Positions 28,207 through 63,435 of a stretch of 64,000 nt of DNA are shown piece by piece. How positions within the stretch are numbered: position 1 is the stretch's first letter; each line of letters opens with the position of its first letter. The notes under the pieces were generated by a model. The model worked only from the letters and a program-made list of their open reading frames with translations. It did not search any database and was not told the origin of the DNA. The DNA lies in the NCBI RefSeq assembly GCF_013283855.1, contig NZ_CP054056.1:992001-1056000 (forward strand). The letters are read 5' to 3'. The stretch comes from Aquiluna borgnonia. GTDB taxonomy: Bacteria; Actinomycetota; Actinomycetes; Actinomycetales; Microbacteriaceae. The translations under genes and the position numbers were made by a program.

Positions 28207-28514
28207 ACCTGATTTACCTCAGCGCCCTTCTGGTCTCAATTCTCGGGTTGGGGCTGATTGACCTTCGTCAGCGACTAGCTCTCCCAGTCGCTCCCCTGCG
28301 CACTGTCGTCACCATTGGGTTTGCCGTTGGGATTTTTCTGGTTTGGGATTTGGTGGGCATCGCCCTGGGTATCTTTTTTCGCGGCCCAACTGAGTTTCTT
28401 ACCGGAATAACTCTGGCAAATGAGCTTCCGCTCGAAGAGCTGTTCTTTTTGATTTTGCTGAGCTACACGATTCTGCTGGCCTACCTTGGAGCTAAAAAGT
28501 GGCTTCGGAGCTGA
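28203..28514 (+). CDS. crtYe: Lycopene cyclase subunit, CrtYe-like
   Basis: 103-residue membrane protein with three hydrophobic helices, one half of a heterodimeric lycopene cyclase. The family motif LPLEELFFL sits in the last third, preceded by VWDLVGIALGIFF. It resembles CrtYe of the corynebacterial decaprenoxanthin cluster more than CrtYc (judged by eye). TTG start overlapping the crtI stop. Partner: crtYf next door. Confidence 0.85.
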   Translation: MNLIYLSALLVSILGLGLIDLRQRLALPVAPLRTVVTIGFAVGIFLVWDLVGIALGIFFRGPTEFLTGITLANELPLEELFFLILLSYTILLAYLGAKKWLRS

Positions 28515-28798
28515 GCTACCTCGCAATTGCCATGCCACCGGTACTGGTGATGCTGGTACTGGGCCTGGTGCTGAGAAGTAAATTGCAGCTGAGAGCCCTG
28601 GTGGTAGCTGCTGTGGTTGTGCTTGCGATGACCGCGGTGTTTGACAATCTGATCATTTGGGCAGGGATCGTCGCCTATGACCAGACGCTGATTTCAGGGG
28701 TAAAGCTTGCACTTGCCCCGATAGAGGACTTCTCCTACTCACTGGTTGGTCTAATACTTATCCCACTGGTTTGGGAGCTTTGGGAAAGAAGAAAATGA
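28499..28798 (+). CDS. crtYf: Lycopene cyclase subunit, CrtYf-like
   Basis: 99-residue second half of the cyclase. Three hydrophobic helices and the motif LAPIEDFSYSLVGL. It starts at GTG within the last codons of crtYe (16 bp overlap). With CrtYe and CrtEb it should cyclise C50 flavuxanthin-type precursors to epsilon ends, as in decaprenoxanthin synthesis. This is inferred from gene order. Confidence 0.83.
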   Translation: MASELSYLAIAMPPVLVMLVLGLVLRSKLQLRALVVAAVVVLAMTAVFDNLIIWAGIVAYDQTLISGVKLALAPIEDFSYSLVGLILIPLVWELWERRK

Positions 28799-29646
28799 AG
28801 CTGCTGGGGAAATTGTTCTGGTCATCCAGGCCGATCTCCTGGGTCAACACTGCATTTCCGTTTGCCGCCGCATACTTCTTCACCACCGGAAAAATCGACT
28901 GGGTTTTGATCCTCGGGTCAATCTTTTTCCTCATCCCATACAACCTGCTGATGTATGGGGTGAACGACGTCTTTGACTACGAGAGTGATTTACGAAACCC
29001 GAGAAAAGGCGGCATCGAGGGTGCGCTGCTGGATCCAAAATTTCACCGACCAACACTGATTGCAAGCTTTGGCATGGCGTTGCCCCCTGCCATGGCCCTG
29101 AGTTTTGTGAACCCAACCGCCACGGCAATTCTGTGGTTTGTGCTTTTTATGGTTGTCGCTTACAGCCTGAAAGGTTTGCGGTTCAAAGAAATACCTTTTC
29201 TAGACTCCCTCACTAGCGCCATTCACTTCGTGGGTCCGGCGGCGGTTGGCCTTGCGATGGCGGAGGCAGAGCTGGAGGGTGAGATTACCCTGGCCATGGT
29301 GGCCTTTTTGATCTGGGGCATGGCCTCTCACGCTTTCGGTGCGGTGCAGGATGTCCGGGCAGATCGAGAAGCTGGCATCAAATCAATTGCCACTGCCATT
29401 GGAGCTCGCGCCACCACCAGGTTGGCATTTATTGGCTACCTGGTGGCCGCCGCCCTTACCCTCACCCTCCCCGATAGATTTGCTTTCTCAGCCCTGGCAG
29501 CCGTTCCCTATTTATTTGTGACCCTCAGGGAGTGGAACATTGAGGACTCAAACTGCGAGCGGGCCAACCGCGGTTGGAAACTGTTCATCGGTCTGAATTT
29601 CCTAGCCGGAGCCATAATCAGCTCACTGCTAATTGGGCCTAGCTGA
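28795..29646 (+). CDS. crtEb: UbiA-type prenyltransferase, lycopene elongase
   Basis: About 283 residues and eight to nine helices. The first Asp-rich motif is GVNDVFDYESD, the second is VQDVRADREAGI. Placed after crtYe/crtYf exactly as crtEb in corynebacteria, where it adds two C5 units to lycopene. ATG 28795 overlaps the crtYf stop (ATGA). An upstream start at 28771 is less likely. Its 3' end overlaps the convergent SprT-like gene by 8 bp. Confidence 0.88.
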   Translation: MKLLGKLFWSSRPISWVNTAFPFAAAYFFTTGKIDWVLILGSIFFLIPYNLLMYGVNDVFDYESDLRNPRKGGIEGALLDPKFHRPTLIASFGMALPPAMALSFVNPTATAILWFVLFMVVAYSLKGLRFKEIPFLDSLTSAIHFVGPAAVGLAMAEAELEGEITLAMVAFLIWGMASHAFGAVQDVRADREAGIKSIATAIGARATTRLAFIGYLVAAALTLTLPDRFAFSALAAVPYLFVTLREWNIEDSNCERANRGWKLFIGLNFLAGAIISSLLIGPS

Positions 29647-33347: not shown

Positions 33348-33944
33348 CTAGAGGCCAAATAGCAGAGTCCCCGCAATTGCAAACATGACTAGGGCGATGA
33401 ACCCGTCAAGGATCTTCCAGAATCGGGGGCTCGAAACAAATCTAGAAAGCAGCTGAGCCCCAAAACCAAGCGAGAAGAACCAAACAAAACTTCCAGCGGA
33501 GGCACCGAGGGCGAATAGCCACTGCTCGGGAGTGAACTGGTTTCCAATTGAACCCAAGAGAATGACGGTGTCAAGGTAAACGTGAGGATTGAGCCAGGTC
33601 AGTGCGGCCATCGTGCCAAGAGTCTTGAGCAGGCTGGCGCTTTCCCCACCTGCCTCCAGACTCTGATCTGTTCCGATTCTCCTGAGGGCCGAGATACCGA
33701 ACCAAATCAAGTAGGCAGATCCGGCGTATCTGAAAATTTCCAGCAGAATTGGGAGCTGCTCAATAACTGCCCCAAGGCCCGCCACGCCTGCAACGATCAG
33801 CAGTGCATCGGAAATTGCACAAAACAGCACCACCGCCAACACGTGTTGCTTTTTTAGCCCCAACCTCAGCACGAAGGCGTTCTGGGCTCCAATCGCGATA
33901 ATCAGAGAGAGTCCCGTGAAAAATCCAGTTAGGGCGGCAATCAT
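33348..33944 (-). CDS. LysE/ArgO-type amino acid exporter
   Basis: 198 residues, about six hydrophobic helices. The N-terminal GLSLIIAIGAQNAFVLRLGL is the LysE/ArgO signature, and TWLNPHVYLDTVILLGSIG is the second. Likely exports basic amino acids. It overlaps blh by 4 bp, so it is probably on the same transcript although the functions are unrelated. Confidence 0.9.
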   Translation of the reverse strand: MIAALTGFFTGLSLIIAIGAQNAFVLRLGLKKQHVLAVVLFCAISDALLIVAGVAGLGAVIEQLPILLEIFRYAGSAYLIWFGISALRRIGTDQSLEAGGESASLLKTLGTMAALTWLNPHVYLDTVILLGSIGNQFTPEQWLFALGASAGSFVWFFSLGFGAQLLSRFVSSPRFWKILDGFIALVMFAIAGTLLFGL

Positions 33945-34894
33945 GGCTTGCTCACTAACGCCCTGAAGTCAAGCCTGGCGGTTAGGGCCATGTGGGGAAT
34001 TGTGAGCGCCCAGATAACCACGAGCAGCAACCAAAGCGCAGCGGTCCCCAAATCAAATCCAGTCATCACTCCCAAAACCACGGTGAACACTAAAACCAGC
34101 GCAAGAGCTGGCAATCCCGCGTTGAACGCTTTCCAAAAGGCCCCGCTTGAATTACCAGCTGCGGACTGCTGCCTGGATGACTCAAATTCCAAAGCCAGGC
34201 GGCCGGTGTGCCGAAGGGCATGCCAACCACCAAAGTAAAGCGCAAAGGCCACCAGGGGCGGGGCAATCAGGCTTAGGGCCAGTAAGAGCCCCAGGTCAAT
34301 AACCTCCGGCCAACTGCGCCGAAGCGCCATGACCAACATGGCTACCAGGTTCAGCGCAATAACCCCTACCAGCAGCGAAGTTTCCAAACCTCCGGCCCAC
34401 GGGATCAAAACTGGATTGACCGCAGCCAGGGCCTCAGTTGAACCTTGAACCAGCAGGGGAATGAAGACCGGAGTGAAGCCCATTGCAACCGCGTAAAGCG
34501 CGCGGTTGCGAAGTTCAGCATTCCGACGGCTGGCAATCTCGGAGCCAAACGAAGCATCCCCAAGGCCAAAGTGAATCGCACTCACCAGAACAATTAGCTG
34601 GAAACCCAAAAGATTGTTCTGCAGCAGGAACCAAATTCCCAATCCCGTTACCGCGAGGTAACCGGCGATAAATCCTGCCATGCGCCAGAGCTGCATTTTT
34701 GGGACCGACACCAGGTGATCGACTGCACCGTGGGGAATCCCAATCGAGAGTGCTAACAGCGCCATAACAATTTGCCATTCCAGCTGTCCCGGGAAGAAAA
34801 CGGCGAGCGGAATTGAAATAAAAGTGCCACCCAAAATGATGTATCTGGAGATGGTTCGAAGTTGAACCAACAGTCTCAATTCGACTTGCTGCAC
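33941..34894 (-). CDS. blh: Brp/Blh beta-carotene 15,15'-dioxygenase
   Basis: 317-residue polytopic membrane enzyme that cleaves beta-carotene to two retinal. The iron-ligand histidines typical of the family are visible: IPHGAVDHL (H55, H60), IHFGLGD (H108), GGWHALRHT (around 220-230) and IPHMALTAR near the C-terminus. GTG start at 34894. It is divergent from the beta-type lycopene cyclase pair that would supply its substrate. Retinal implies a rhodopsin elsewhere in the genome, as in actinorhodopsin carriers (inference). Confidence 0.92.
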   Translation of the reverse strand: MQQVELRLLVQLRTISRYIILGGTFISIPLAVFFPGQLEWQIVMALLALSIGIPHGAVDHLVSVPKMQLWRMAGFIAGYLAVTGLGIWFLLQNNLLGFQLIVLVSAIHFGLGDASFGSEIASRRNAELRNRALYAVAMGFTPVFIPLLVQGSTEALAAVNPVLIPWAGGLETSLLVGVIALNLVAMLVMALRRSWPEVIDLGLLLALSLIAPPLVAFALYFGGWHALRHTGRLALEFESSRQQSAAGNSSGAFWKAFNAGLPALALVLVFTVVLGVMTGFDLGTAALWLLLVVIWALTIPHMALTARLDFRALVSKP

Positions 34895-51320: not shown

Positions 51321-52313
51321 TCAGGACTCGAAATTCTTTCGGGTATTCCAAAGGTATGTGATCCCTGCAACTGAGGCTAGGGAAAGTATCAGAGAGGGGA
51401 AGAAGATAAAGAGATCCGCCAGAACCCCAATCCTTGGATCCCCGGGAGCTAATGCTCGAAGCTCTAGTATTCCCAGCATCGAAGCTGCCGCCCAGATCAA
51501 TGACTCCATCGATGGAGGTCTGATACCCAGGGCCATCTGAGAGGTCACCCAAACCAGAGCCAGGGTCGCAATCAAGATAAATGAGTAGACGAAGATGGCA
51601 ATCGCCTTGACTGCAAAGGACCTTTCGATAAACGCGTAGAACGAGATCTTCCCGTCGGCACGCTCAGCAGCGATTCGGAACGGGTCAGATGACTCGGATT
51701 CAGCGGGATAGGCACTCTCAAAGGCGGCTAGGCGCTGGTAGGTGACGTCAAACCCGGGAACGGGGGATGTATAGAAGTAGTCGAAGGTTTGAATGGTCGA
51801 ATATTCTTGCAACTCAGATTCTCGTGTTTCAACCCTGGCGTATGAATCGAGCACGTACTGGTCAAAGGGGTAGAGCGAATCCGATGCCAAATCAGGGAAG
51901 TCAGTGGAAAGTACATCGGCAACAACCTCAACTCCACCGACCTGATCCCCTGCGGAGAACTCCGTGAGCTCAGCATCTTGGCTATCCACAAAAAGTCTGA
52001 TGTCTTTTTCAGTCAGTACTGAAGAGCTAAATTGCTTGGCCAGATCATCAGTTGGCCACGGGTAAAACGCAAGTTCTGCGCGCTCCGTTTCAGGATCAAA
52101 ACCCAGCATTTGCACGTAGACCGCGACTGAGTTCTCTTCAAAGTCGGTCGAGGATTCGCCAAAGATTCCCTGTTCATTGACCTGCACGCCTGAGGGAGCG
52201 TAAGCATCAGAAATCAATGCCAGCAAGGGAAATATAAGGGCAAGAGCTATTGCTCCCACCACGAATACCAGCCGGGCTTTCTTGCCCTCTGCTCTAGTTA
52301 CCCCCACTGCCAC
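51321..52313 (-). CDS. DUF4436-like membrane protein
   Basis: 330 residues. One N-terminal helix (about 17-39), a large outside domain (about 40-225), and three C-terminal helices. The layout, plus YPFDQYVLDSYARVE and WVTSQMALGIRPPS, resembles DUF4436 proteins found in actinobacteria. Function unknown. It follows the 590-residue secreted protein gene by 24 bp and is likely in the same operon, so its partner may be that secreted family. Confidence 0.7.
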   Translation of the reverse strand: MAVGVTRAEGKKARLVFVVGAIALALIFPLLALISDAYAPSGVQVNEQGIFGESSTDFEENSVAVYVQMLGFDPETERAELAFYPWPTDDLAKQFSSSVLTEKDIRLFVDSQDAELTEFSAGDQVGGVEVVADVLSTDFPDLASDSLYPFDQYVLDSYARVETRESELQEYSTIQTFDYFYTSPVPGFDVTYQRLAAFESAYPAESESSDPFRIAAERADGKISFYAFIERSFAVKAIAIFVYSFILIATLALVWVTSQMALGIRPPSMESLIWAAASMLGILELRALAPGDPRIGVLADLFIFFPSLILSLASVAGITYLWNTRKNFES

Positions 52314-52337: not shown

Positions 52338-54110
52338 CTACTTGGAAGCGACAATCACCATGGCATCAAATGTTTTTGAAGATGTCTTTTTCGCAGTTGC
52401 TACGAAGGAGTGGTTCGGATCCCAGGTTTTGATGAAGTTGCAGACCTCTTGGGCTCTAGAAAGAGCCAGTGCCTTGGACTTTGGGTTGAAGTAAGTGGCG
52501 GTGCAGGCAAAGGTTTCGTTGTTTTTTCCCTTGGCGATTACCTGATAGATCTCTTGCTTTTGCCCATCGGAAAGCGTCTTTTTAGAACCCGTGAATTTTG
52601 TCAGTGTCTTGCTAAAAGGTTGGCTGAGCTTGACCTGTATTTCTTTTTCGGAGAAAGTGAACCCGTAGGCAGCAAGTTTCAACCAGCCGTCTTTCTCGGA
52701 AACGATGGTCGAGGCCACTTTTTCCTCTCCTGATGCACCAATCACGGCGACAGTTGCAGAGACTGGGGCGTTTGTAAACCCGTATAAACAGCGTGCCACT
52801 TCACTACTCATAACTAGGTCATAGGTTCCCAAACTCAGGGAGCCGTCAGGGAGAAAGTGCAATCCAGCGACATCGTAGGAGAGATAACCGTCGTTGAATG
52901 CGGGAATGATTCCGTTATAAAGGGTTGCGTTGGTGGAAACCATGCCAAGGATGGCGCCTTGATTTGATAGGCACCTATTGTTTGAGCGCGAGTCAATTGT
53001 GCTGAAATTCCAGAGAGTTGTTGTGCCAATAGCGCGATCGTCAGCTAGGTCACGGAACATTTCAAGCCATTTGAACTCACCCCAGTTTGAGAACGGATAG
53101 ACAACTCCTCCGCCTCGAAATTGTCGACCATTTCCTCCGTGAGCAACAATGGCTTGGCGTTCCTGTTCAGTTGTGTTTGAACTGTTGGCAACGGCATAAA
53201 ATCTTGCTACCTCAACCGGGGCGGCCTCAACAGTAAGTTTCAAATTGGTGTCAGAGTGTGGCTCAATTTTGATGTCGGGACCGCTCATTCGACCCCTGAA
53301 CCAACCGACGATTTCTTTTGAAACCCGCGAACTCAACTTGATTCGGAAATCAGTAGGTAGGGCAGCCTCGATTCCACATGCCCCTTCTTCCACCCAAGTA
53401 CATTCCTTCGGCGCGTTTGGGGCCCAAGATTCGAAATTTCCGTTCGGAGAGCTCCACTTCGTTAAGGTTGGGAGCTTGATGTTTGAATCTCTGCGCTCGG
53501 AGTAGGCATAAACAGATACATCGATTGTTGAGGTCCTAAATTTCTTTGACCTTGCAGCGTCAAAATCTTGAACGGTGAAGAAATTGACCGCATAGGTATT
53601 CGTACCGGCGCCATTCACGGCGCCGTCAACTTCGAACAGAGACACCGCGCTGCCAGCGTACAAACCCTGGTCTGGTATCGCTGGCATTTGAATTCCAGCG
53701 ACTGTTCGCAAAAATTTGGCTGGCAGTACCTCTCCATTTTTACCCGTAAAGCTCAGTGCCTCAACGCAGTTCTCCTGGAGCGTTGACTCGCAAAAAGGAA
53801 GTATCGTTTTCGCAGAAGCGCGAAGCCCTGGTTTCTCGAGATCACACTTTTCATCGCCCGGGATGTTGCCCTCTAGGCAAATCCAGCTATCAAAGACTCC
53901 GGAGCTTTTCACGTTGGCGTAAACACCAATGAATGAGTTGTTTTCGAAACCACCGTACTCGTAGATAGAAACCGCCTCCGACCCGGCTGCCACTGGGGGC
54001 TCGCTCCCCTGAATCCAATTCCGACTGTAGGAAGTTTCCGCATTCGCGCTAGCACTAAAGGCTAGAAAGGCCGCAATTATGAGCGCAGTAATTCTCTTCA
54101 ACGATCTCAC
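52338..54110 (-). CDS. Secreted paralogue family member A, function unknown
   Basis: 590 residues with an N-terminal signal peptide (cleavage after about residue 24) and no membrane anchor. Shared family features in order: paired Cys segments (WICLEGN..CD, CESTLQENC), CTWVEEGACGIE, IVGWFRGRMSGP, NNRCLSNQGAILGMVSTNA, DGYLSYDVAGLHFLPDG, ARCLYGFTNAPVSA, then KDGWLKLAAYGFTFSE, and a basic C-terminal module with CTATYF and RAQEVCNF. The C-terminal tail is OmpA-like only in length and pattern. GTG start. Not a known enzyme. Part of the 613-590-DUF4436 operon. Confidence 0.8.
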   Translation of the reverse strand: MRSLKRITALIIAAFLAFSASANAETSYSRNWIQGSEPPVAAGSEAVSIYEYGGFENNSFIGVYANVKSSGVFDSWICLEGNIPGDEKCDLEKPGLRASAKTILPFCESTLQENCVEALSFTGKNGEVLPAKFLRTVAGIQMPAIPDQGLYAGSAVSLFEVDGAVNGAGTNTYAVNFFTVQDFDAARSKKFRTSTIDVSVYAYSERRDSNIKLPTLTKWSSPNGNFESWAPNAPKECTWVEEGACGIEAALPTDFRIKLSSRVSKEIVGWFRGRMSGPDIKIEPHSDTNLKLTVEAAPVEVARFYAVANSSNTTEQERQAIVAHGGNGRQFRGGGVVYPFSNWGEFKWLEMFRDLADDRAIGTTTLWNFSTIDSRSNNRCLSNQGAILGMVSTNATLYNGIIPAFNDGYLSYDVAGLHFLPDGSLSLGTYDLVMSSEVARCLYGFTNAPVSATVAVIGASGEEKVASTIVSEKDGWLKLAAYGFTFSEKEIQVKLSQPFSKTLTKFTGSKKTLSDGQKQEIYQVIAKGKNNETFACTATYFNPKSKALALSRAQEVCNFIKTWDPNHSFVATAKKTSSKTFDAMVIVASK

Positions 54111-54136
54111 CGGAAATTCAATATTGAGGAGCTTGG

Positions 54137-55978
54137 TCAGCTCTCGTTCTTCATGGTGACCATGACCTTGCCAACGTAGCCGGCAGAGCTGGACGGCTTT
54201 GCTTCTGCGAAGTAGCTGAGGGTCTTGTCAAGACTCTTGGCGTAATTGCAAACTGCATCGGCACGCTTTTTGGCTAGGGTCATCTCAGCAGCGCTTGCAC
54301 CCTGCTTATAGACACCTGTGCAAACGAACTTGTTTGCCTCAATGAACCCCTTGAGGTAACCAGAAACGTTCTTTTTGATGGTCGCGTTTACCGAGCTAGC
54401 CGAGCCGGCAAATTTGTCAGTCACAAAGTTCTGAACTGGCTTTTCAGGAGCCTTCGGGCAACCGTAAGCATCGTTGAAGGTCACGGTCTTCTTGGTGACC
54501 GGGTCAACACACTTGATGGTCTTGGCCTTCACGAATCCCTTGAAGTTCCCAGCCTTTTTTATCTGAATCTTTGGCTTGGAGAAGTTGAAGCCCGTGACGT
54601 CGATGATGATGTTGCCGTGCAGGTAGGCAATCTTGCTCACTGCAACGGCCGGTCCACCGTTTTCGTTGACAACCGAAATAGTCAGCGCGGTAACGGCCTT
54701 CTTAGGGTCTGCTAGACCCCAAAGCAGCAGGGCATCGTTGGCGGGAATCACGGCCTTGTAGAAGCCCTTGTTTGGAGTTACCCCGTCTGGCTCGAAGTGA
54801 GGAGCACCTGCCTGCCACTGCAGAGTCTCAGTCTCGTCATTCCAAACCGGAGTGGAGATGCCACACGAGGCACCGTTGGAGGCAACCGAGAGTCTTCCCG
54901 ATAGACCGTCCACACCAAATCCCATGTCATCGTTCTCGACCACTACAAAGCCCTGCATGGTGTTCACAACAGCTGTTGCGGTTGAGGTTTCACCTTCGCA
55001 CTGCTTCATGTTGGTGATCTGGGGAACTGGAACCGGGGTGCCGGAGATGGTCAGTGACCCACCAACCTCGGCGGTGCCGGCGACGGCCTCAAACTTTAGG
55101 CTGTTGGCAATACCAATCGACACGCCTGTGATGATTTCACCGGTTCGGACCTTGATCGTGATTCGGTCGTCCATGTTGAGGTTTGCTGCCATCTGCAAGT
55201 TGCTCTGTCGAGCGGCCAAGAAAGTCTTGTTGGTTTCATCTGCAACCACTGGGTATGCAGTGAAGAACAGGTGGTTGGTGAAAGCGTTAGCAGCCGAAAG
55301 GTCGATCTTCAGGCCGTCGTATCCATAGGCATCGAGACCGTAAGTATCCCACTTGGGGTGAGTCCAACGACCAGCTAGTGCCTTGCCCGGGGCGACAGGG
55401 TCGATGCCAGTACCGACCTCGCTTGGCGAACCAACCTGGTAAGACTTCAGCGCGATGCGCTCAGGGGCTCCAAACTTCCCATCGCCATCGGCATCAACGA
55501 AAACTGCAATCGCCCCTGGACCCTGATCGGTGGCGGCAGTGGCAACTGAGAAGTTCAATGCGGTTGCTCCTGCGGCTCCCTTGGTGTCTCCGGACAAAAC
55601 TCCGACACCATTGACGGTCACACTCAACGCCTGCTTAGGAGCTGCCGCTGGCAAAGTAAAGGAGAATGTTGCAGTCTCACCCGGGGTAATAACTTCTGGA
55701 CCTGTCACTAACTCTTCACCTGGGATGCTCACCGGCTCCTCTGCAACCACCTCGGGTGCGGTGCCAGAGTCATACCACTTCAGTTCAAGGGCGGTTTTGG
55801 AGCCCAGTGGCTGAATGGAGACCGACTCGATGCAGAAATCCACCCGGAAGTCATCGCATACCGGCCAAGCGGTTTTCGGGACTGCTAATTCGGCATTGGC
55901 TGGAGCTGGCGTTAGAACCAGAGCGGCAAGCGCACTGACTGCAGCAATTGAACGAAACTTGGTCCATACAGACGACAT
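54137..55978 (-). CDS. Diverged secreted paralogue B, function unknown
   Basis: 613 residues, signal peptide with cleavage after NAEL region (about residue 28). It matches the family layout loosely: N-terminal VCDDFRVDFCIESVSIQ, middle beta-rich domain with GLDAYGYDGLKIDLS, ALLLWGLADPKKAVTALT, IIDVTGFNFSKPKIQIKK, and a C-terminal module with VCTGVYKQGASAAEM and KRADAVCNYAKSLDKTLSYFAEA. It has insertions and lacks the KDGWLKL segment of the other four. It starts with GGGGGAA in front of ATG and faces paralogue C over a 149 bp divergent gap. Confidence 0.75.
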   Translation of the reverse strand: MSSVWTKFRSIAAVSALAALVLTPAPANAELAVPKTAWPVCDDFRVDFCIESVSIQPLGSKTALELKWYDSGTAPEVVAEEPVSIPGEELVTGPEVITPGETATFSFTLPAAAPKQALSVTVNGVGVLSGDTKGAAGATALNFSVATAATDQGPGAIAVFVDADGDGKFGAPERIALKSYQVGSPSEVGTGIDPVAPGKALAGRWTHPKWDTYGLDAYGYDGLKIDLSAANAFTNHLFFTAYPVVADETNKTFLAARQSNLQMAANLNMDDRITIKVRTGEIITGVSIGIANSLKFEAVAGTAEVGGSLTISGTPVPVPQITNMKQCEGETSTATAVVNTMQGFVVVENDDMGFGVDGLSGRLSVASNGASCGISTPVWNDETETLQWQAGAPHFEPDGVTPNKGFYKAVIPANDALLLWGLADPKKAVTALTISVVNENGGPAVAVSKIAYLHGNIIIDVTGFNFSKPKIQIKKAGNFKGFVKAKTIKCVDPVTKKTVTFNDAYGCPKAPEKPVQNFVTDKFAGSASSVNATIKKNVSGYLKGFIEANKFVCTGVYKQGASAAEMTLAKKRADAVCNYAKSLDKTLSYFAEAKPSSSAGYVGKVMVTMKNES

Positions 55979-56127
55979 AGTGTTCCCCCTAAGAAATCTT
56001 CTTCCACCTGTTTACTCGCTTTTAAAAGCTCAGGTCAACTCCAACGGACCGTTCCGCTGTCCCCTTTTCGGAAATTGAACGAGCAGGGTTGTTGAGGTAT
56101 GTTCAAATTTAGATTTTCGGGGGAAAT
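55979..56127. promoter_or_regulatory. Divergent promoter between paralogues B and C
   Basis: 149 bp gap between two divergent secreted-protein genes. Each side ends in a G-rich ribosome site (GGGGGAA). No perfect operator is seen. A -10-like TTTAGATTTT lies near 56108. Probably holds both promoters. Confidence 0.5.
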
Positions 56128-57810
56128 ATGAAACGCAGATCATTTGCAATGATTATGGCGGCACTCATCGCCAGCGCATCAGCGATGCCGTCTATGGCGG
56201 CTGCTGAGGACTACCTGAGTGGCATCACTCTGCAAGGTGATGAATGGCTAGTGATGTCGTCCGAACAATCGCGTGACGGGGTCCATTCAATGCTCGCACT
56301 GCAACCTGGAGGGGTTGGAATCGGTGAGACTAGGGGAGACTGGATTTCTTGCACCGGAATCGACGACCCAACCTGCTCAAACCCGGTTGCGAAGAAAACT
56401 ATTCTTGCATGGGCCTTGCTCACCGATTGCACGATTACAGATCAAGAATTTTGTATTGAATCACTCAAGCTCTCGGTCGGTGGGCAAGTCCTTGAGGAGG
56501 CCAAACTCATTGGCTCGGGGGACCCAAGAAACAATTTCGAGGGAAATCCAAAGCAAAATTTGCTTCCGGGAAACAGCGTCCCAATCTACTCAACACAGAC
56601 TGCTCTAAACGAGGCCGGGAACGGCAATTTTGCGGTCATGATACGACCTTCGCAGTTTTGGGATTCCGCGAAGGGGTCCTTTGTCACTGGTGACCTTGAG
56701 GCTGCGATTCTCCCTTATTTCCTGAATGGTGAGGAGGGCAGTGGAGCCTGTCTATTTACAGTTGGAGGGGTTTGCGCCAGGTCTACGGATTTCCTGGCCG
56801 GGACAAAAATTGAGTTGACATTTAGAATTCCCAAAAGTCTGGGCGGGTGGTTTAGCGGTCGCATGAAGGACCCCACCATATCCATTGCCCCACTGAGCGC
56901 TCAGGCGAATCGAATTCAAATCACTTCTGAACCTGTCGAAGTTGCTGCCCTGGGTCTTGTGAAGTCCAAAGCAGCCTTCACTGACGTTGAAAATATGTGG
57001 CAGCAGAACAATGGAAAATGGTTTGCCAACGGAGGTTGGGCAACCGGTGCAAACAGTTGGCAGCCGAATATTTTTCCGTTCATCGAAAACTACCGACCAC
57101 AGGTGAATGACACCGCCATCGGCACCAACCTGGTATGGAAAATGCGAACCATCGGCTCGGGAGGTGGCTCCAACTGCCTCGCGGATAAATCCAGGGTTCT
57201 AGGCATCGTGACAACTAATGCCTTGGGCTACGACATAGGGTCCCCCGAGTTCAGGGACGGGTTCTTGGAATACAAGGTCGCCGGTCTTCACTACATGCCA
57301 AATGGCAAGGATTTGGTAATCGGAACCTATGACCTGATCATTGAATCGGAAACCGCTCGCTGCCTCTACGGATTCACAAATGCTCCAGTATCCGCAACGG
57401 TAACGGTGGTTGGAACCGGCGATCAGAATGTCGCATCGACTGTCGTTTCTGAAAAGGATGGCTGGCTAAAACTTGCCGCCTACGGGTTTACCTTCTCCGA
57501 AAAGGAAATCAAGGTGAAGCTTTCGCAGCCACTGACTAAGTCGCTCAGTGAGTTCTCTGGCTCTTCAAAGACTCTCAGTGCAAAACAGAAAAATGAAGTC
57601 TCGGCCTTGATGAAAAAGGTTTCTTCGAACCCTAAGTTCATCTGCACCGGCACCTACGTGAAACCTTCGGACAAGGCAATCGCACTCTCAAGAGCCAAAG
57701 CAGTTTGCAACTATGCCAAAGGGCTTGACAAGAACCACAGCTTCTTCGCCCAGGCCAAGCAAACCAAAGCTGCTAGTTATGACGGGAAAGTCATGGTGTC
57801 GAGCAAATGA
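56128..57810 (+). CDS. Secreted paralogue family member C, function unknown
   Basis: 560 residues, signal peptide (about 1-26, ending MAAAEDY). Family features in order: WISCTGIDDPTCS, DCTITDQEFCIESLKL, ACLFTVGGVCARS, LGGWFSGRMKDPTISI, NCLADKSRVLGIVTTNA, DGFLEYKVAGLHYMPNG, ARCLYGFTNAPVSATV, KDGWLKLAAYGFTFSE. The C-terminal module has CTGTY and RAKAVCNYAKGLDKNHSFFA. Six or more invariant Cys suggest extracellular disulfides. ATGA overlap with member D, and near-identical 3' end with it. Confidence 0.82.
   Translation: MKRRSFAMIMAALIASASAMPSMAAAEDYLSGITLQGDEWLVMSSEQSRDGVHSMLALQPGGVGIGETRGDWISCTGIDDPTCSNPVAKKTILAWALLTDCTITDQEFCIESLKLSVGGQVLEEAKLIGSGDPRNNFEGNPKQNLLPGNSVPIYSTQTALNEAGNGNFAVMIRPSQFWDSAKGSFVTGDLEAAILPYFLNGEEGSGACLFTVGGVCARSTDFLAGTKIELTFRIPKSLGGWFSGRMKDPTISIAPLSAQANRIQITSEPVEVAALGLVKSKAAFTDVENMWQQNNGKWFANGGWATGANSWQPNIFPFIENYRPQVNDTAIGTNLVWKMRTIGSGGGSNCLADKSRVLGIVTTNALGYDIGSPEFRDGFLEYKVAGLHYMPNGKDLVIGTYDLIIESETARCLYGFTNAPVSATVTVVGTGDQNVASTVVSEKDGWLKLAAYGFTFSEKEIKVKLSQPLTKSLSEFSGSSKTLSAKQKNEVSALMKKVSSNPKFICTGTYVKPSDKAIALSRAKAVCNYAKGLDKNHSFFAQAKQTKAASYDGKVMVSSK
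57508..57659 (+). repeat. Duplicated 3' segment, copy 1
   Basis: 152 bp read by eye as identical to 59196-59347, 1688 bp further on. Similarity with few changes extends from about 57345 to the stop. Encodes the end of the KDGWLKL repeat region and the start of the C-terminal module. Confidence 0.9.
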
Positions 57811-59498
57811 AACTTAGCATACTTCTCACTCTTTCAATTTTGATCTTGCAGGGCCCTGGGGTGGCAATCGGGTCCCCCGTTGCTCCAAACCAGATTCCCG
57901 TTGGAAACGATGAGGCCCTTGTTTACATCAGTGAGCAAGAGGATGTGCGAATCTGGGGCTCACAACTCACACTCGCACCAGGTAAGCCCGATGAAAATCT
58001 CGTGCGTGATCCTTGGATTGAATGCGAATCTGTCAAAGATCCAGTCTGTGATTTTGCAAAGCCCAACTACAACCCAAGCGCGTCTATAAATCTGGGCAAG
58101 TGCGAGAACGGCGCCTCCGAAAACTGCCTGGTTGGTCTCAGGGTCAAGCGTGACGGAGTCCTCTTGCCCGCAGAATTTATCTCAGCGGTTCCCGGAACAA
58201 AGACATTTCCCGCAGTTCCAGAGTTAGGGCTTTTTGACACTGGTGCAGCATCGCTTTTTGACGTGCCGGGCGCACCCCATAGTGGCGGAACTCTTTACTT
58301 GGCTGGGGCAAGAGTCACGTCAAATTACGATGCCAAGACAAAACGGTTCGTGCACACAGACATGTATGTGACCATCTATCCCGTTGCGCTTCAGGGTCAA
58401 AACTTGAGCCGCCCGGGAGCGAACAGCTGTCTTTGGAATTACGAAAATCAATGCTGGGAGGCTGTTCCATTCCCCAAGGGCCTCACATTTGGCGTTGAGC
58501 TTCGGGTCGTGAATGAATTGGGTGGCTGGTTTTTGGGAAGATTCCAGTCCCCCAACATCCAGGTAGCTAAGTTCTCCAACACCAATAACCAAATGGTCGT
58601 TGACGCAGAGCCGGTTGAGGTTCCCAGGTTTGCCTATCTCACAAAGAAGAGCGAGCTAACCGCGGCCGACAAGATTGCTGTTGGGAATGTTGGCGGAACA
58701 AATGCTCTCTTCGAAGACCGTCCCGCAAGGCTTGGGAATGACGGTTTTGACACCAGCGTTTTTGGAATGCTGGCCCACTTCAAGGACCGGGTATCAGATA
58801 CTGCGACCGCCACCACTTCTCACTGGCGCATGCGCACAACTTCCAGAAATGGCGGCAATAAGTGTCTTACCCAATACGACAAAGTGTTGGGAATCGTCTC
58901 GACAAATGCGACCGCTTATGACGGATTTGCCCCGCAATTCAAGGATGGTTACCTCGACTACAAGGTTGCTGGTCTTCATTATTCTCCTGATGGAAAAACC
59001 CTTAATGTTGGCACATACGATTTAGTGATTAGCTCCGAAACCGCCCGCTGCCTCTACGGATTCACAAATGCTCCAGTATCCGCAACGGTAACGGTGGTTG
59101 GAACCGGGGATCAGAATGTTGCATCGACTGTCGTTTCTGAAAAGGATGGCTGGCTAAAACTTGCTGCTTACGGATTTACCTTCTCTGAAAAAGAGATCAA
59201 GGTGAAGCTTTCGCAGCCACTGACTAAGTCGCTCAGTGAGTTCTCTGGCTCTTCAAAGACTCTCAGTGCAAAACAGAAAAATGAAGTCTCGGCCTTGATG
59301 AAAAAGGTTTCTTCGAACCCTAAGTTCATCTGCACCGGCACCTACGTCAAACCAGCCGACAAAGCAATCGCACTCTCTAGAGCCAAAGCAGTTTGCAACT
59401 ATGCCAAGGGGATCGACAAGAACCACAGCTTCTTTGCGCAGGCCAAGCAAACCAAAGCTGCTAGTTATGACGGCAAGGTCTTGATTTCCTCAAAGTAG
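57807..59498 (+). CDS. Secreted paralogue family member D, function unknown
   Basis: 563 residues with signal peptide (about 1-22). Features in order: WIECESVKDPVCD, GKCENGASENCLVGLRV, NSCLWNYENQCWE, LGGWFLGRFQSPNIQV, NKCLTQYDKVLGIVSTNA, DGYLDYKVAGLHYSPDG, ARCLYGFTNAPVSATV, KDGWLKLAAYGFTFSE, CTGTYVKPADKAIALS. Its last roughly 155 residues match member C almost exactly, while the rest is much more diverged. ATG overlaps the member C stop (ATGA), so the two are translationally coupled. Confidence 0.82.
   Translation: MKLSILLTLSILILQGPGVAIGSPVAPNQIPVGNDEALVYISEQEDVRIWGSQLTLAPGKPDENLVRDPWIECESVKDPVCDFAKPNYNPSASINLGKCENGASENCLVGLRVKRDGVLLPAEFISAVPGTKTFPAVPELGLFDTGAASLFDVPGAPHSGGTLYLAGARVTSNYDAKTKRFVHTDMYVTIYPVALQGQNLSRPGANSCLWNYENQCWEAVPFPKGLTFGVELRVVNELGGWFLGRFQSPNIQVAKFSNTNNQMVVDAEPVEVPRFAYLTKKSELTAADKIAVGNVGGTNALFEDRPARLGNDGFDTSVFGMLAHFKDRVSDTATATTSHWRMRTTSRNGGNKCLTQYDKVLGIVSTNATAYDGFAPQFKDGYLDYKVAGLHYSPDGKTLNVGTYDLVISSETARCLYGFTNAPVSATVTVVGTGDQNVASTVVSEKDGWLKLAAYGFTFSEKEIKVKLSQPLTKSLSEFSGSSKTLSAKQKNEVSALMKKVSSNPKFICTGTYVKPADKAIALSRAKAVCNYAKGIDKNHSFFAQAKQTKAASYDGKVLISSK
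59196..59347 (+). repeat. Duplicated 3' segment, copy 2
   Basis: Second copy of the 57508-57659 segment, no differences seen by eye. The flanking parts of the C-terminal region differ at scattered, mostly silent, positions. Confidence 0.9.
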
Positions 59499-59531
59499 GA
59501 ATTCACACCTTCGAATGAGGTTGAGCTAGCT

Positions 59532-59888
59532 ATGGTTTTGGTATTTGATGGCGATTGCAGTTTCTGCTCATCTAGTGCGCGGTTGTTTCAAAAGCTAACC
59601 AAGGGTCGAGTTGACATTGAGCCCTATCAATTTGCCAATCTCGAGGTTCTTGGGCTCAGGGCTGAGGACTGCGAAAGAGCAGTTCAGTTTGTGTCGGAGG
59701 GCCAGCGCTTCGAGGGCCACCTAGCGATCGCGCAGGCTCTGAAGGCTTCAAAAACTGGATGGGCGATTGCTGGCTACCTGCTTACCCTACCGGTGATAAC
59801 GAGCGCTGCATTCGTGGTTTACGCCTGGGTCTCAAATAACCGCCACAAGCTCCCCGGGGGCACTCCCGCATGCGCTGTAAATAAGTGA
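59532..59888 (+). CDS. DCC-family thiol protein (DUF393)
   Basis: 118 residues. The DxxCxxC motif VFDGDCSFCSSSARLFQ at the start is the DCC1 signature. A hydrophobic segment (about 85-100) follows. Proposed disulfide or redox role in the family is not proven. The nearby Cys-rich secreted proteins make a thiol-related task plausible, but this is only inferred from position. Confidence 0.85.
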   Translation: MVLVFDGDCSFCSSSARLFQKLTKGRVDIEPYQFANLEVLGLRAEDCERAVQFVSEGQRFEGHLAIAQALKASKTGWAIAGYLLTLPVITSAAFVVYAWVSNNRHKLPGGTPACAVNK

Positions 59889-59899
59889 TAACAACTTCC

Positions 59900-59911
59900 G
59901 CAAACGCTTGC
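59900..59911. promoter_or_regulatory. LacI-type operator, distal
   Basis: GCAAACGCTTGC is a near-palindrome around a central CG, in the LacI/GalR-family style. It lies about 44 bp upstream of the second such site (59955-59968). Confidence 0.55.
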
Positions 59912-59954
59912 TGACAGAAGCTAGCGGGCTACTACGATTAGCTGAACTAGCAAC

Positions 59955-59968
59955 TGCAATCGTTTACA
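59955..59968. promoter_or_regulatory. LacI-type operator, proximal
   Basis: TGCAATCGTTTACA fits the LacI-family consensus TGNAANCGNTTNCA with central CG. It ends at the ribosome site of the GH13 gene (GGGAGG at 59969-59974), so a bound repressor would block the start region. The repressor gene is not in the window. Confidence 0.7.
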
Positions 59969-59980
59969 GGGAGGTGGCTC

Positions 59981-61447
59981 GTGTCTGGAGCCAGCATCTT
60001 GGTCTACGCCGAAAGAGTCGGCGGATCACTTGGTGAAATTGAGAAACTACTCAAGGGGCCACTGGCAGATTTCTCAGGCATTCACGTGCTTCCCTTTTTT
60101 CACCCCTACGACGGTGATGATGCCGGCTTTGACCCGATAGACCACACCATCGTTGACCCACGGCTCGGAAACTGGTCTGACTTCAAGCGCATCTCTGAGA
60201 CTCACGAACTGACCGCTGACCTAATTGTTAACCACGCCTCCTACCTCTCCCCTGAGTTCATCGACTGGCAGGAAAAAGGCGATGCCTCAGAGTTTGCGGG
60301 GATGTTCCTGACTTTTGACACGGTCTTCCCAAACGGTGGAAATGAGGAGGGAATCACCTCTTTTTACCGCCCCAGACCTGGCTTCCCTTTCACCGCATAC
60401 AACGTAGCCGGCAAGCGCAGGCTGGTGTGGACCACCTTCATGCCCAGCCAGGTCGACATCGACATCGAGCACCCTGCGGGACAGGCTTACCTGGATCGCA
60501 TCCTGGTTGCCCTAAAATCTGGCGGCGTCAAGGTGGTGCGCCTGGATGCTGTGGGCTACGCGGTGAAAACTCCGGGAACCGACTCCTTCATGACCAAAGA
60601 AACCCTGGAGTTCGTGAAGGAAATCACCGAAAAGATTCACTCCTACGGGATGAGAGTTTTGGTTGAGGTTCACGCCCACTACACCCAGCAGCTTGACATC
60701 GCTCCGCTGGTGGACCTGATTTACGACTTCCAAACCGCTCCTCTGCTCCTGCACTCGTTTTTCACGGGAACCGTTGACCGACTGGACAACTGGTTCAAAA
60801 TTCGCCCGGACAACTGTCTGAACGTGCTGGACACGCACGATGGCTACGGCGTGATTGACGGCGGCCCAATTGGGGGCCGCCCAGGCTTAGTCACGCAAGA
60901 GGAAATGGCACACATTTTTGCCGTGGCGGAGAAAAACACCGGTGGCCACTCAAAACTTGCCTCGGTAATCCCACAGTGGTTTGAGCTGCCCCACCAGATC
61001 AACGCCACGTTGCCGAACATCCTGGCCGATGACACCGCTTACGTAATCTCAAGAATGGTTCAGTTCTTACTTCCAGGGGAGCCTCAGGTTTACTACGTGG
61101 GCCTTTTCAACGGAATGGACGACCAGAAGCTGTTTGCGGAGTCAGGTCAGGGTCGCGACGTAAACCGCCACCACTACACCCCGGCCGAGATCTCCAAGGC
61201 TCTGGAATCTGAAGTCACTCAGGCCATCATCGCGATGGCCAGAATCCGCAGATCTTCGGCTTTTGAGGGAACCTTCTCCTGGAGGGTGACTGGTTCGGAC
61301 AGCATGAACCTGAGTTGGTCCGGTGCCGCTGAAGAACTGAGTTTTGACTTCTCGACAAAAATGGGATCGCCTCACTTCAAGCTTGAAGTGAGGGGCGATG
61401 GAGGAATCCGAAACTTTTCCTCCGTAGCTGAACTCGCCAGCTATTGA
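59981..61447 (+). CDS. GH13 sucrose phosphorylase-like enzyme
   Basis: 488 residues. N-terminal GVHVLPFFHPYDGDDAGFDP-type segment (here IHVLPFFHPYDGDDAGFDPID), catalytic nucleophile Asp in VVRLDAVGYAVK, acid/base Glu in VLVEVHAHY, and LDTHDGYG with the transition-state Asp. This is the GH13_18 (sucrose phosphorylase) group, whose members also include glucosylglycerate, sucrose-6-phosphate and glucosylglycerol phosphorylases, so exact substrate is open. Cytoplasmic, no signal. GTG start with GGGAGGTGG upstream. LacI-type operators precede it. Confidence 0.88.
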   Translation: MSGASILVYAERVGGSLGEIEKLLKGPLADFSGIHVLPFFHPYDGDDAGFDPIDHTIVDPRLGNWSDFKRISETHELTADLIVNHASYLSPEFIDWQEKGDASEFAGMFLTFDTVFPNGGNEEGITSFYRPRPGFPFTAYNVAGKRRLVWTTFMPSQVDIDIEHPAGQAYLDRILVALKSGGVKVVRLDAVGYAVKTPGTDSFMTKETLEFVKEITEKIHSYGMRVLVEVHAHYTQQLDIAPLVDLIYDFQTAPLLLHSFFTGTVDRLDNWFKIRPDNCLNVLDTHDGYGVIDGGPIGGRPGLVTQEEMAHIFAVAEKNTGGHSKLASVIPQWFELPHQINATLPNILADDTAYVISRMVQFLLPGEPQVYYVGLFNGMDDQKLFAESGQGRDVNRHHYTPAEISKALESEVTQAIIAMARIRRSSAFEGTFSWRVTGSDSMNLSWSGAAEELSFDFSTKMGSPHFKLEVRGDGGIRNFSSVAELASY

Positions 61448-61453
61448 ACCGGC

Positions 61454-61546
61454 CTAATCGTCATCTCGCGAAGGGCCGCCCGCCAGAAAAATAACGGCCA
61501 GCAGCGCCGTTAGGCTCAGCACCAGCGGATGTGAGACTAACTCCAT
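61454..61546 (-). CDS. 30-residue predicted membrane peptide
   Basis: ATG 61546 overlaps the stop of paralogue E (TGATG), which implies translational coupling. The peptide has a central hydrophobic helix (about residues 7-23) and an acidic end (PSRDDD). No known family. It could be a small partner of the secreted protein or a chance frame. Confidence 0.4.
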   Translation of the reverse strand: MELVSHPLVLSLTALLAVIFLAGGPSRDDD

Positions 61547-63315
61547 CACTTTGTAGTGACTGTCACTTTGGCGTCCGAGAGGCTAGAGGTAACGGGTACG
61601 GCCGCTATTTCGTAGGTTCGTTGGGGGTCAACTTTTTTGGCCAAAGCACAGGTCGCCTTCGCCCTGGCAAGTGCCAGTTGCCGATCGCTTAATTTGCGGA
61701 ATGCTCCAGAGCAGGTGACCGACTTATTTGCATTCGTAGTCGCCAAGAGCGTCCTGACTTCCCCCTGCTGTTTAGAGGTCAGTGTCGTTGTTCTGCCAAT
61801 GAATTTTGCGAGCACCTTTGCTTTGGGCTGCGAGAGTCTGACTTGAATTTTGTTTTCTGAAAATGTAAATCCGTAGGCTGCCAGCTTGAGCCAGCCGTCC
61901 TTCTCAGAGACAACGGTTGAAGCCACCTTCTGCTCACCGGATGTTCCCACGACAGTGACGTTGGCCGATACCGGGGCATTGCTGTAGCGGTAGAGACATC
62001 TAGCGACCTCGCTCTTGAGCAGCAGATCGTAAGTGCCCTCGAACTCCGTCTTCCCGTCCGGCAGGTAGTGCATTCCAGCCACCTTGTAGTTCAGGAAGCC
62101 ATCTTTGAATTGGGGGGGTGCCATTCCCTCAAAAGTCGTGGCGTTGGTGAAAACCATTCCCGCCACTCCATAGTCCTGGTAGCAGGGGTTGCCTAAATCA
62201 GAACCAATGGCTGCCACTCGCCAAAATGTATTTTGGCCGCTCGCGGCGTCACCCGTGTGTTCACGAAGCACGTCAAGACTCTTGAGGGCCGGCTCGTAGT
62301 AGGGCTTGGTCATGTGAAATTGGGTGCCCTCCCTGGTGAAACCGAGCTTCTCGCGTAGCCCTGAGGCGTTGTCGAAAACCACGGCAACCTGCGGGACGGA
62401 GATTGGGTTCGCATCCAGCTCCAGCACTGTTGCAGAACCATCCTTGGTGACGTTGAGGGCAGGGTCTGAGACTCGACCGTTGAAAAACTTTCCGATGGGG
62501 GGTTTACTTCTGATGGTCAAACCGATGCGAAGTCCCTCAGGGTGGTCGATTTTGACACCGCAACCCTGTTTGTCTTCCCACACGCAGGGCCTAAAGGGCC
62601 GATACCAATTACCAACGCCCGGCGAGGTTGAGAGGGGCGTAAAGCCTAGAGGCGGCACTCTCCTCCCAGGATCGCCTTCCACGTAAGGCTCCACCTGCAT
62701 GGCAAATTCGTAGGCCAGGTAGTTCTTGCCCCTGCTTGGTGCTTGAGAGCTTGGCCGGTCCACCTCGAGATTTCTAAATTCCGCAGAACCAAAAACTGCG
62801 ACCTTGAGCCCCTCAAATCCCGACCCGGGGCCGGCTTCCCAAAGTGACGTCGTGCCACCCTCAGGAACTCCGTGAGATTCAACAGCCGGCGTAGTGTTCC
62901 CCTCAACTGAACGAATTAATTTGGCTGAAACCTTTTGTTCTCCGACCCGGTAGAGACGAACGTCCGAAATGCACCAGTCGCTGGCGTCCGTCTCGCAGAC
63001 TGGCATAGCCAGGCTAAAGCGCAGGACCTCGAAACCATTGGGCTGCTCAGAGCGCGGCGTGGAGGCATCAAGCAAAGATTCAAAGCAAGGATCTACCCCG
63101 AGGGCACGGCAATCCGCGGAGTGCGTCCCATACTCAGTCTTGGTCTCGAGATTCACAACCGATGGTGAGCCAAAGTTGTAGTCCTCCCGGATTTCAAAGA
63201 CGGTCTTAGCCTGCTGGTAGACGTTGCCTGGCTCAAAAACCCAAGGTTCGGCCGAGGCACTCTGCCCCATAACTAAAAGTGATAGTCCTGCCGACAAGGC
63301 CCAGGTTGATTTTTT
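61546..63315 (-). CDS. Secreted paralogue family member E, function unknown
   Basis: About 589 residues with signal peptide from ATG 63315 (KKSTWALSAGLSLLVMGQSASA, split here as KKSTWALSAG and GQSASA). GGGGGCAA precedes it. Features in order: paired Cys segments (DCRALGVDPC, VCETDASDWC), PCVWEDKQGCGVK, IGKFFNGRVSDP, PCYQDYGVAGMVFTNA, DGFLNYKVAGMHYLPDG, ARCLYRYSNAPVSANV, KDGWLKLAAYGFTFSE, CSGAFRKLSDRQLALA. The most diverged of the four clear paralogues except B. Opposite strand to C and D. Confidence 0.8.
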   Translation of the reverse strand, partial: KKSTWALSAGLSLLVMGQSASAEPWVFEPGNVYQQAKTVFEIREDYNFGSPSVVNLETKTEYGTHSADCRALGVDPCFESLLDASTPRSEQPNGFEVLRFSLAMPVCETDASDWCISDVRLYRVGEQKVSAKLIRSVEGNTTPAVESHGVPEGGTTSLWEAGPGSGFEGLKVAVFGSAEFRNLEVDRPSSQAPSRGKNYLAYEFAMQVEPYVEGDPGRRVPPLGFTPLSTSPGVGNWYRPFRPCVWEDKQGCGVKIDHPEGLRIGLTIRSKPPIGKFFNGRVSDPALNVTKDGSATVLELDANPISVPQVAVVFDNASGLREKLGFTREGTQFHMTKPYYEPALKSLDVLREHTGDAASGQNTFWRVAAIGSDLGNPCYQDYGVAGMVFTNATTFEGMAPPQFKDGFLNYKVAGMHYLPDGKTEFEGTYDLLLKSEVARCLYRYSNAPVSANVTVVGTSGEQKVASTVVSEKDGWLKLAAYGFTFSENKIQVRLSQPKAKVLAKFIGRTTTLTSKQQGEVRTLLATTNANKSVTCSGAFRKLSDRQLALARAKATCALAKKVDPQRTYEIAAVPVTSSLSDAKVTVTTK

Positions 63316-63435
63316 CATTTGCCCCCAAGTGAAGTACTCGGACAAAGGTTAGCCAGTTGGTTAGTAAACGAGCTGAATCGACCTGAAGTTTTGACCGATA
63401 ATTGACCTATTAGTTTGTGCACGAAGGGGCGGCTT

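Follow-up and report, generated by a model that had tools for sequence, protein, structure and literature searches.

The subject of this analysis is a set of five large genes, designated A to E, that lie between positions 52338 and 63345 of a 64,000-nucleotide (nt) stretch of the genome of Aquiluna borgnonia (contig NZ_CP054056.1, positions 992,001 to 1,056,000; the whole stretch is referred to as the window). The whole genome is assembled as one contig of 1.36 Mb. An earlier note on this DNA had described the genes as a cluster of five secreted cysteine-rich paralogues, and all five open reading frames (ORFs) are confirmed where it placed them, with C, D, A and E homologous along their length (36-50% identity to A). 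The genes and their parts are as follows.

57807..59498, + strand: A-type gene A, 563 amino acids (aa); signal peptide (by eye), mostly beta cysteine-rich core, shared C-terminal module, tail predicted to be OmpA-like
56128..57810, + strand: A-type gene D, 560 aa; 4-nt overlap with the start of A
52338..54110, - strand: A-type gene C, 590 aa; directly after B on the - strand
61546..63345, - strand: A-type gene E, 599 aa as the listed ORF
54137..55978, - strand: B-type gene, 613 aa; of a sister subfamily, by sequence, that adjoins A-type genes in other lineages
55979..56127: intergenic region of 149 nt between B (-) and D (+), which are head to head
58926..59216, + strand: shared C-terminal module of A, about 97 aa
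52620-52910, - strand: shared C-terminal module in C
61828-62121, - strand: shared C-terminal module in E
54554-54853, - strand: shared C-terminal module in B
59229..59495, + strand: predicted OmpA-like tail of A, with Cys509/Cys530 and the Arg of the RA helix; coordinates derived from protein positions
54149..54418, - strand: tail of B, homologous to the predicted OmpA-like tail of A; coordinates derived from protein positions

The true start of E is probably nine codons inside the listed frame, at MKKST. Over their full lengths D, C and E are 50%, 43% and 36% identical to A, and B is 27% identical. Comparison of A with its own genome gives matches far beyond chance to D (E=1.8e-157), C (E=2.3e-121) and E (E=2.1e-81), and a sixth, distant A-type copy is located elsewhere, at about 99.6-101.3 kb (G000:C1; E=8.4e-51 with A; genomes and loci are labelled G and L throughout). 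The shared cysteine pairing and signal peptides that it reported are borne out: C, D, A and E have exactly ten cysteines apiece at matching positions (73/81, 99/107, 208/216, 353/415 and 509/530 in A), which can be read as five pairs, four in the core and one in the tail, and signal peptides are recognised by eye. E has the weakest hydrophobic stretch, its peak falling short of a threshold that the other four proteins reach.

The B-type subfamily, the core and the tails

A more complex relationship is seen with B, which had been regarded as a diverged fifth member of the set. A profile of the A-type proteins covers B in three stretches only (residues 33-60, 327-474 and 521-610), corresponding to the N-terminal cysteine pair, the region of the shared C-terminal module, and the tail. 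Nine B-like genes from arrays elsewhere share 34-50% identity with B, and a tenth, outlying sequence shares 20%. By these comparisons B is the window's member of a separate sister subfamily and no mere fifth copy. B adjoins A-type genes in all 12 loci measured (the window and 11 others, chosen because both types are present); the two types are head to head in five of them (the window, G006, G020, G585 and L044), with gaps of 85-185 nt, and in the seven others B lies ahead of an A-type gene in the same direction, with a gap of 85-151 nt.

The core resembles no known enzyme fold, in agreement with what had been claimed, insofar as it has no curated family over cut-off and no credible match in the PDB among the best 50 listed of 655. 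No Pfam family is over cut-off for any of the five proteins, in NCBIfam A is unmatched and the sole match of B is implausible and far below cut-off, and a profile of 72 A-type sequences finds no PDB sequence at E up to 1. The AlphaFold model of A, built from the 72-sequence alignment, has a predicted local distance difference test score (pLDDT) of 86 and a predicted template modelling score (pTM) of 0.81 and is mostly beta up to residue 470, with a few short helices; it is less sure at residues 421-440, inside the module, and in the linker at 471-480 (block means 56-67). In the Foldseek results for A against the PDB the matches to the tail prevail and may conceal a weaker one to the core, such that the lack of a credible core match among those best 50 is not a strong negative. 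The two best E-values belong to full-length alignments to Ams1 with template modelling (TM) scores of 0.13-0.14 and a root-mean-square deviation of 21, which were disregarded, and the matches outside the tail have a TM by query of at most 0.16. Against viral structures A gives no credible core match, and the two best matches are again OmpA-like, with low TM; the model of B has no match at E 0.001 or better and none that is credible for the core.

Several polar residues of the core are strongly conserved: N367 is invariant and R245, T366, H391, R414 and E445 are present in at least 90% of sequences, and most of these lie in or near the shared module, which is partly carried by B too. This module has weak profile similarity to the PP2 phloem lectins (PF14299), with matches at E<=0.1 in 45 of the 72 A-type sequences and a best E of 3.9e-5. 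Membership of PP2 is not supported, with A scoring 18.8 bits and its module alone 22.6 bits against a curated cut-off of 25 bits (the scores of most other members are not among the printed values); the PP2 profile is matched only in part and there is no support from fold. A module profile compared with the PDB finds only weak matches, to bulb lectins (best E 0.006, sub-threshold) and others, and bulb lectins have another fold.

The tail of A is an OmpA-like domain by predicted fold, and the other tails of the window may be assigned to the same fold by homology. Foldseek matches the tail of A to the OmpA-like peptidoglycan-binding domains of SiiA (6qvp), Pal (4g4w), OmpA (3td3), OprF and MotB at a probability of 1.00, with a TM by target of 0.46-0.73 (single-domain chains; the highest, 0.73, is for 6qvp_B) and E-values of 0.002-0.1 (the lowest being 0.0019). 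D, C and E have equivalents of this tail at the end of their genes, and that of B would have the same fold by its homology to A, its own model being poor there. The earlier description of a basic, cysteine-containing tail is correct as to charge and cysteine pair, and what it describes is by the predicted fold of A an OmpA-like domain. The window tails share with the OmpA-like proteins the arginine of the RA helix, which is kept in 34 of 37 aligned tails (counted by eye in a sequence alignment), and differ in having a cysteine pair and in residing on secreted actinobacterial proteins, not on an outer- or inner-membrane protein.

The tails vary among loci. Loci L043-L085 contain 89 family ORFs, of both types, whose 3' end is complete (five further ORFs lack the 3' end and are outside this count), and 79 of these have a short cysteine-basic tail of the type TITCxKGKxxKKVTxxxPKCPxGYKKK; the other ten comprise three close variants missed by the pattern, three that end in lysines after the module, one (L076) with an OmpA-like end, and three (L081) with ends of another kind. 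In the genus of the window, short tails are found in G020 and OmpA-like ones in the window and G006, and the window's B carries both ends, a short cysteine/basic stretch being followed by the OmpA-like tail. The A-type genes of G585, from another genus of the same family, have a lysine-rich end only. The net charge of the short tails is +5 to +12 with a median of +9 (n=79, last 30 residues), the five tails of the window are at +8 to +12, and their five cores are at -7 to -14. The arrangement, as we read it, is a swappable basic end on an acidic core, and from the occurrence of different basic ends on one kind of core we infer that the ends would have one job, that of holding the protein on an anionic wall.

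The OmpA-like module is not restricted to this family. Ten other proteins of the genus that carry it were scanned, of which two are trypsin-like and one has an fn3 domain, all over cut-off, three have weak metalloprotease matches and four match nothing; such variety is as would be expected of a general attachment part. At L041:1869-5073 and L042:1281-4494 (in the relatives G012 and G018) a trypsin-like protease is encoded beside a second protein, both with the OmpA-like module, and the second protein of L041 is weakly metalloprotease-like. We also note a short KCPxGYK-type tail on ORFs that are unmatched by the A-type profile (L049:10769-11800, L072:14209-14985 and L082:1888-2964), and this tail too may be a general module.

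Distribution and evolution of the arrays

A scan of one genome per species (84,980 species) yields 43 loci, all with titles naming actinobacteria; this is a lower bound, as the scan requires exact short peptide patterns, and some titles of metagenome-assembled genomes look wrong ('Bifidobacterium breve', 'Streptomycetaceae'). Among sampled relatives, full-length A-type proteins are present in 3 of 22 genomes of the genus (own included), several of which are incomplete (50-85%), and in none of 37 others; a larger tally of 16/59 counts mostly the tail alone. The shared module occurs in 3 of 299 genomes of the family and 5 of 396 of the phylum, in each case including the window's own, and the other four of the phylum are weak. 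A different picture is seen in the order of G727, the carrier of L054, where 38 of 151 genomes have the module, with 1-20 matches per positive genome (median 10) and up to 20 in a genome of about 1.5 Mb. This sample includes seven genomes already known from the locus scan and the acI strain IMCC26103; A and B matches are counted together and there is no correction for relatedness. The complete chromosome of IMCC26103, an acI-A4 strain that is reported to have been outgrown when revived (PMC5301498), has 13 module matches. The family is patchy but abundant where present, and the conserved copy number in relatives that had been anticipated is not seen, the three genus genomes with full-length copies having differing numbers, as do the 38 carriers. 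No description of the family was found in the open-licence literature searched, PMC11039613, PMC5301498 and PMC12422013 among it.

A second A-type site is present downstream of a DUF3048 gene (L005:3-2511, L036:519-7043), with one copy in the window's genome and three in G006, and in G585 (L134:1884-10874) the B gene and the array are situated 2-3.5 kb past the DUF3048 gene. In this array the third A-type gene is broken into two frames (L134:9388-10146 and 10143-10874), by either decay or a sequencing error.

Comparison of D and A at the nucleotide level reveals a tract of near identity towards their 3' ends.

57368..57787, + strand: gene-conversion tract, D copy, about 420 nt; the A counterpart is at 59056-59475

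In the 120 or so codons that precede the final comparison interval (itself 85% identical) the two genes are 95-97% identical, and further upstream the figure is 28-58%; in the tract of about 420 nt 400 positions are the same, the mark of a recent gene conversion. Across the 72 A-type sequences the N-terminal region is 22% identical within arrays and 20.5% between loci, and the module end 65% and 57% identical, respectively. The closest relative is in the same array for 6 of 49 members by the N-terminal region and for 20 of 49 by the module end, shares that are lowered by near-identical genomes such as L060 and L071. In a tree many members of the arrays fall together with copies of other genomes (77 rows, with support from the Shimodaira-Hasegawa-like approximate likelihood ratio test, SH-aLRT, only, a short search and many open forks).

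The ratio of nonsynonymous to synonymous change (dN/dS) is 0.01-0.17 in all three core regions in the 12 of 15 pairs of relatives with finite values, dS being saturated in some region in the other three and a few finite dS values exceeding 1. Between close orthologues the N-terminal region has a dN/dS of 0.02-0.17, often above that of the module and far under 1. By these values the family is under strong purifying selection in the relatives. Because of the grouping across genomes together with the low dN/dS, the members of an array would seem for the most part to be old, specialised and conserved, their 3' ends having been partly homogenised. Recent lineage-specific expansion is unlikely as the main story, since many members group with the copies of other genomes and homogenisation is seen at the 3' end, and an arms-race adhesin is unlikely on the N-terminal dN/dS. 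Neither a defence system nor a phage origin finds a sign: none of six proteins has a PADLOC family match, none of four has a PHROGs match, and four viral stretches that matched the search pattern encode no relative.

Genes adjoining the arrays

Two further genes of the cluster may bear on the arrays.

51321..52313, - strand: DUF4436 (PF14494) membrane protein, 330 aa; downstream of C
59532..59888, + strand: DCC1-like (PF04134) thiol-disulfide oxidoreductase, 118 aa

The window's DUF4436 protein has three hydrophobic peaks (residues 16-34, 238-256 and 295-313) and is a member of this domain of unknown function with 31.4 bits, above the cut-off of 23.2 bits; those of L054, L056 and L064 score 73.8-80.9 bits. 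A DUF4436 gene adjoins the array in 8 of 14 multi-copy loci, defined as having at least two A-type genes and including the window (the eight are the window, L044 with two, L054, L055, L056, L061, L063 and L064). It is situated beside the arrays or their regulator genes, and the pieces in L061 and L063 end at contig ends. Over the 151 genomes of the order it is present in 18 of the 38 with the module and 3 of the 113 without (Fisher p 3e-10, not corrected for phylogeny), and in the genus it is present in two of the three carriers and none of the 19 others. The DUF4436 membrane protein is a frequent partner of the arrays.

A sigma-factor gene lies upstream of B in five loci, tested against Pfam in L060 and L064 and called by eye in L061, L071 and L054, and in all five a gene of 215-223 aa is also upstream of B. 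The genes of this size that were tested (L060, L061 and L064), and a like gene of L045, have a single hydrophobic peak; from its place and this peak we would guess that the gene upstream of B is an anti-sigma gene, although it has no Pfam match above noise. At L060:229-14472 the sigma factor, the putative anti-sigma gene, B and three A-type genes are inside a ribosomal-protein operon, with map on one side and rpsM on the other, and with L6, SecY and Adk further ahead. The array of L064 (L064:3-1812) is not at the ribosomal operon, and here a Clp-ATPase-like gene (by eye) is followed by DUF4436, the sigma factor, B and the A-type genes. The array of G585 is followed by a 501-aa gene that contains regions 2 and 4 of sigma-70. 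Downstream of both is a gene (L134:12746-15241) for a protein of 831 aa that by eye has a signal peptide, is unmatched in Pfam and resembles proteins of the surface-layer type.

In the window a regulator gene at 63415-64197 (+ strand, running past the window end), with a weak GAF match and a LuxR-type C-terminus by eye, faces E across a 69-nt gap, and a similar gene, LuxR-type by Pfam and alike by eye, is near the G585 array (L134:15312-16001). The DCC1-like gene also follows the array in the relative G006 (L037:6498-6860) and, as a putative oxidoreductase, might bear on disulfide formation in the cysteine-rich proteins. The GH13-like gene of the cluster shows no sign of being a part of the system, as it was not recognised by eye among the neighbours listed for other loci, where no dedicated search was made. 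The small gene, the membrane gene and the GH13 gene had all been cited as pointing to a common system, and the three fare differently, with DUF4436 recurring in other lineages and DCC in one relative.

Apart from the cluster, we note genes at 26608-29646 of the window that by eye resemble a carotenoid pathway, and a possible retinal-forming dioxygenase gene at 33941-34894.

A proposed surface complex and its alternatives

In the way they work the arrays may be most like the Csc/WxL clusters of low-GC Gram-positive bacteria, but they would be built of unrelated parts. Those clusters, as described in PMC1534035 and PMC10599100, contain genes for surface proteins, wall-binding WxL domains and a membrane-tethered DUF916-DUF3324 partner. 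Both have clustered genes for Sec-secreted surface proteins (here with secretion judged by eye and surface location inferred), and they also have in common that some members combine a conserved C-terminal domain for wall binding, here a putative one, with other N-terminal parts, that there is a membrane-tethered partner, and that the distribution is restricted. They differ in that the tails here are OmpA-like or short and cysteine-basic, the partner is DUF4436, the hosts are actinobacteria, and a module for which there is no curated family is common to the A and B types. No WxL family is among the Pfam matches (E<=0.1) of the 72 A-type sequences or B, and there is no match to DUF916 or DUF3324, the membrane partner being PF14494 DUF4436.

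The most likely scenario, to which we give a probability of about 0.5, is that the gene products are secreted and act as subunits of a surface complex with several components, of which the window holds one copy; they would make up a coat or complex on the cell wall. The proposal of an undescribed surface or extracellular system is upheld to the extent that there is no curated core family, that signal peptides are seen by eye, that the tail has a predicted OmpA-like fold and that the gene neighbourhood recurs. It is probable that the proteins are surface-attached; that they form a multi-subunit complex has slightly less than an even chance, and a carbohydrate ligand is a tentative suggestion. 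The subunits would be exported by Sec and their disulfides formed outside the cell, and the tail would hold each of them non-covalently on the wall, by the OmpA-like groove, by charge or by both. The conserved module would be the common assembly or docking part, and each paralogue would owe a separate partner or ligand, perhaps a carbohydrate, to its diverged N-terminal two thirds, with DUF4436 coupling the complex to the membrane. Expression as one unit could be provided by the shared divergent B/A promoter in the Microbacteriaceae, or by the neighbouring sigma factor of extracytoplasmic function (ECF) type in acI-type loci. A more speculative extension, which we regard as doubtful, is that this is a dedicated heteromeric extracellular assembly of streamlined freshwater actinobacteria, with a B-type subunit, several old and specialised A-type paralogues and DUF4436, in some cases with its own ECF-type sigma factor and even inside a ribosomal-protein operon; it would dock by the new module, be held by interchangeable basic tails on a wall that perhaps lacks diaminopimelate, and constitute a convergent counterpart of Csc/WxL and a main surface organelle of some of the bacteria most common in lakes.

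Several observations weigh against a wall-bound complex. No Pfam match identifies OmpA by sequence in the window proteins, and no OmpA-like match of the tail of A reaches E 0.001 in Foldseek. In OmpA and Pal diaminopimelate is bound by an aspartate that is paired with the arginine; in the 37 tails aligned by sequence an acid follows the cysteine turn within three positions in none and within five in 12, and the window's five tails have none within five. The aspartate thus has no evident counterpart in these five tails by sequence, and the classical wall contact finds no clear support; many Microbacteriaceae walls lack diaminopimelate, which would fit tails without the aspartate. Many A-type copies are alone (L048, L053, L058, L062, L072, L074, L076, L078 and L083). 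DUF4436 is without a match in 20 of the 38 module-bearing genomes and present in three that have no module, it is not visible in 6 of the 14 multi-copy loci, some of which are ended by contig ends, and in the genus it is far from the arrays in G006 and absent from G020 (85% complete). Inspection by eye of the surroundings of the window's cluster revealed no sigma-factor gene, and the window's own genes are not among the pairs for which dN/dS was calculated. The AlphaFold model of B is poor (pLDDT 61, pTM 0.56), and among the models no fold match separates binding from catalysis in the core.

An alternative is that the proteins are wall-held or released extracellular enzymes of an unrecognised family, for example glycan- or peptide-cleaving, with a separate substrate for each paralogue. 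The low dN/dS of the relatives (0.01-0.17) and the nearly invariant polar residues would suit enzymes, two genus proteins with the same tail are trypsin-like, and several of the weak Foldseek core matches are carbohydrate-active enzymes. Those outside the tail are however the ones with a TM by query of at most 0.16, there is neither a Pfam or NCBIfam enzyme family over cut-off nor a PDB match by sequence, and most of the conserved polar residues are in or near a module that is partly found in B too; we consider this explanation unlikely.

The contrast between N-terminal regions that are 20-22% identical and a module end that is 57-65% identical, together with the D/A gene conversion at the 3' end and the weak PP2 matches in 45/72 sequences (best E 3.9e-5), would be accounted for if the arrays were a fast-changing set of lectins or adhesins, with variable N-termini, a constant C-terminal part and a PP2-like module, directed at particles or algae or serving to block grazers or phages. 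This is improbable given the N-terminal purifying selection (dN/dS 0.02-0.17) and the grouping across genomes, neither of which is a sign of an arms race, and given that PP2 is under cut-off wherever a score is printed and the bulb-lectin PDB matches are sub-threshold. The sigma-factor and putative anti-sigma genes upstream of B, the placement of a set between map and rpsM in L060, and the strong purifying selection would alternatively be consistent with proteins for envelope stress or wall maintenance that the adjoining ECF-type sigma factor induces and that have no external ligand. Yet the module is absent from 113 of the 151 same-order genomes and full-length copies from 19 of the 22 genus genomes (several of them incomplete); absence from most genomes of the order argues against a basic wall function, and we give this possibility little credence.

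The family is large and unnamed, with no Pfam or NCBIfam family over cut-off, and is kept in gene clusters by several groups of freshwater actinobacteria. Most freshwater lakes are reported to have the acI lineage as their most abundant group of bacteria (PMC5301498), and IMCC26103 is a named reference genome that carries the family. The link of DUF4436 with these arrays is new and, with the link to sigma factors, provides a first functional setting for this domain. If the wall-bound surface complex is true, it would offer a defined point of entry to the contacts of these cells with substrates, grazers or phages.

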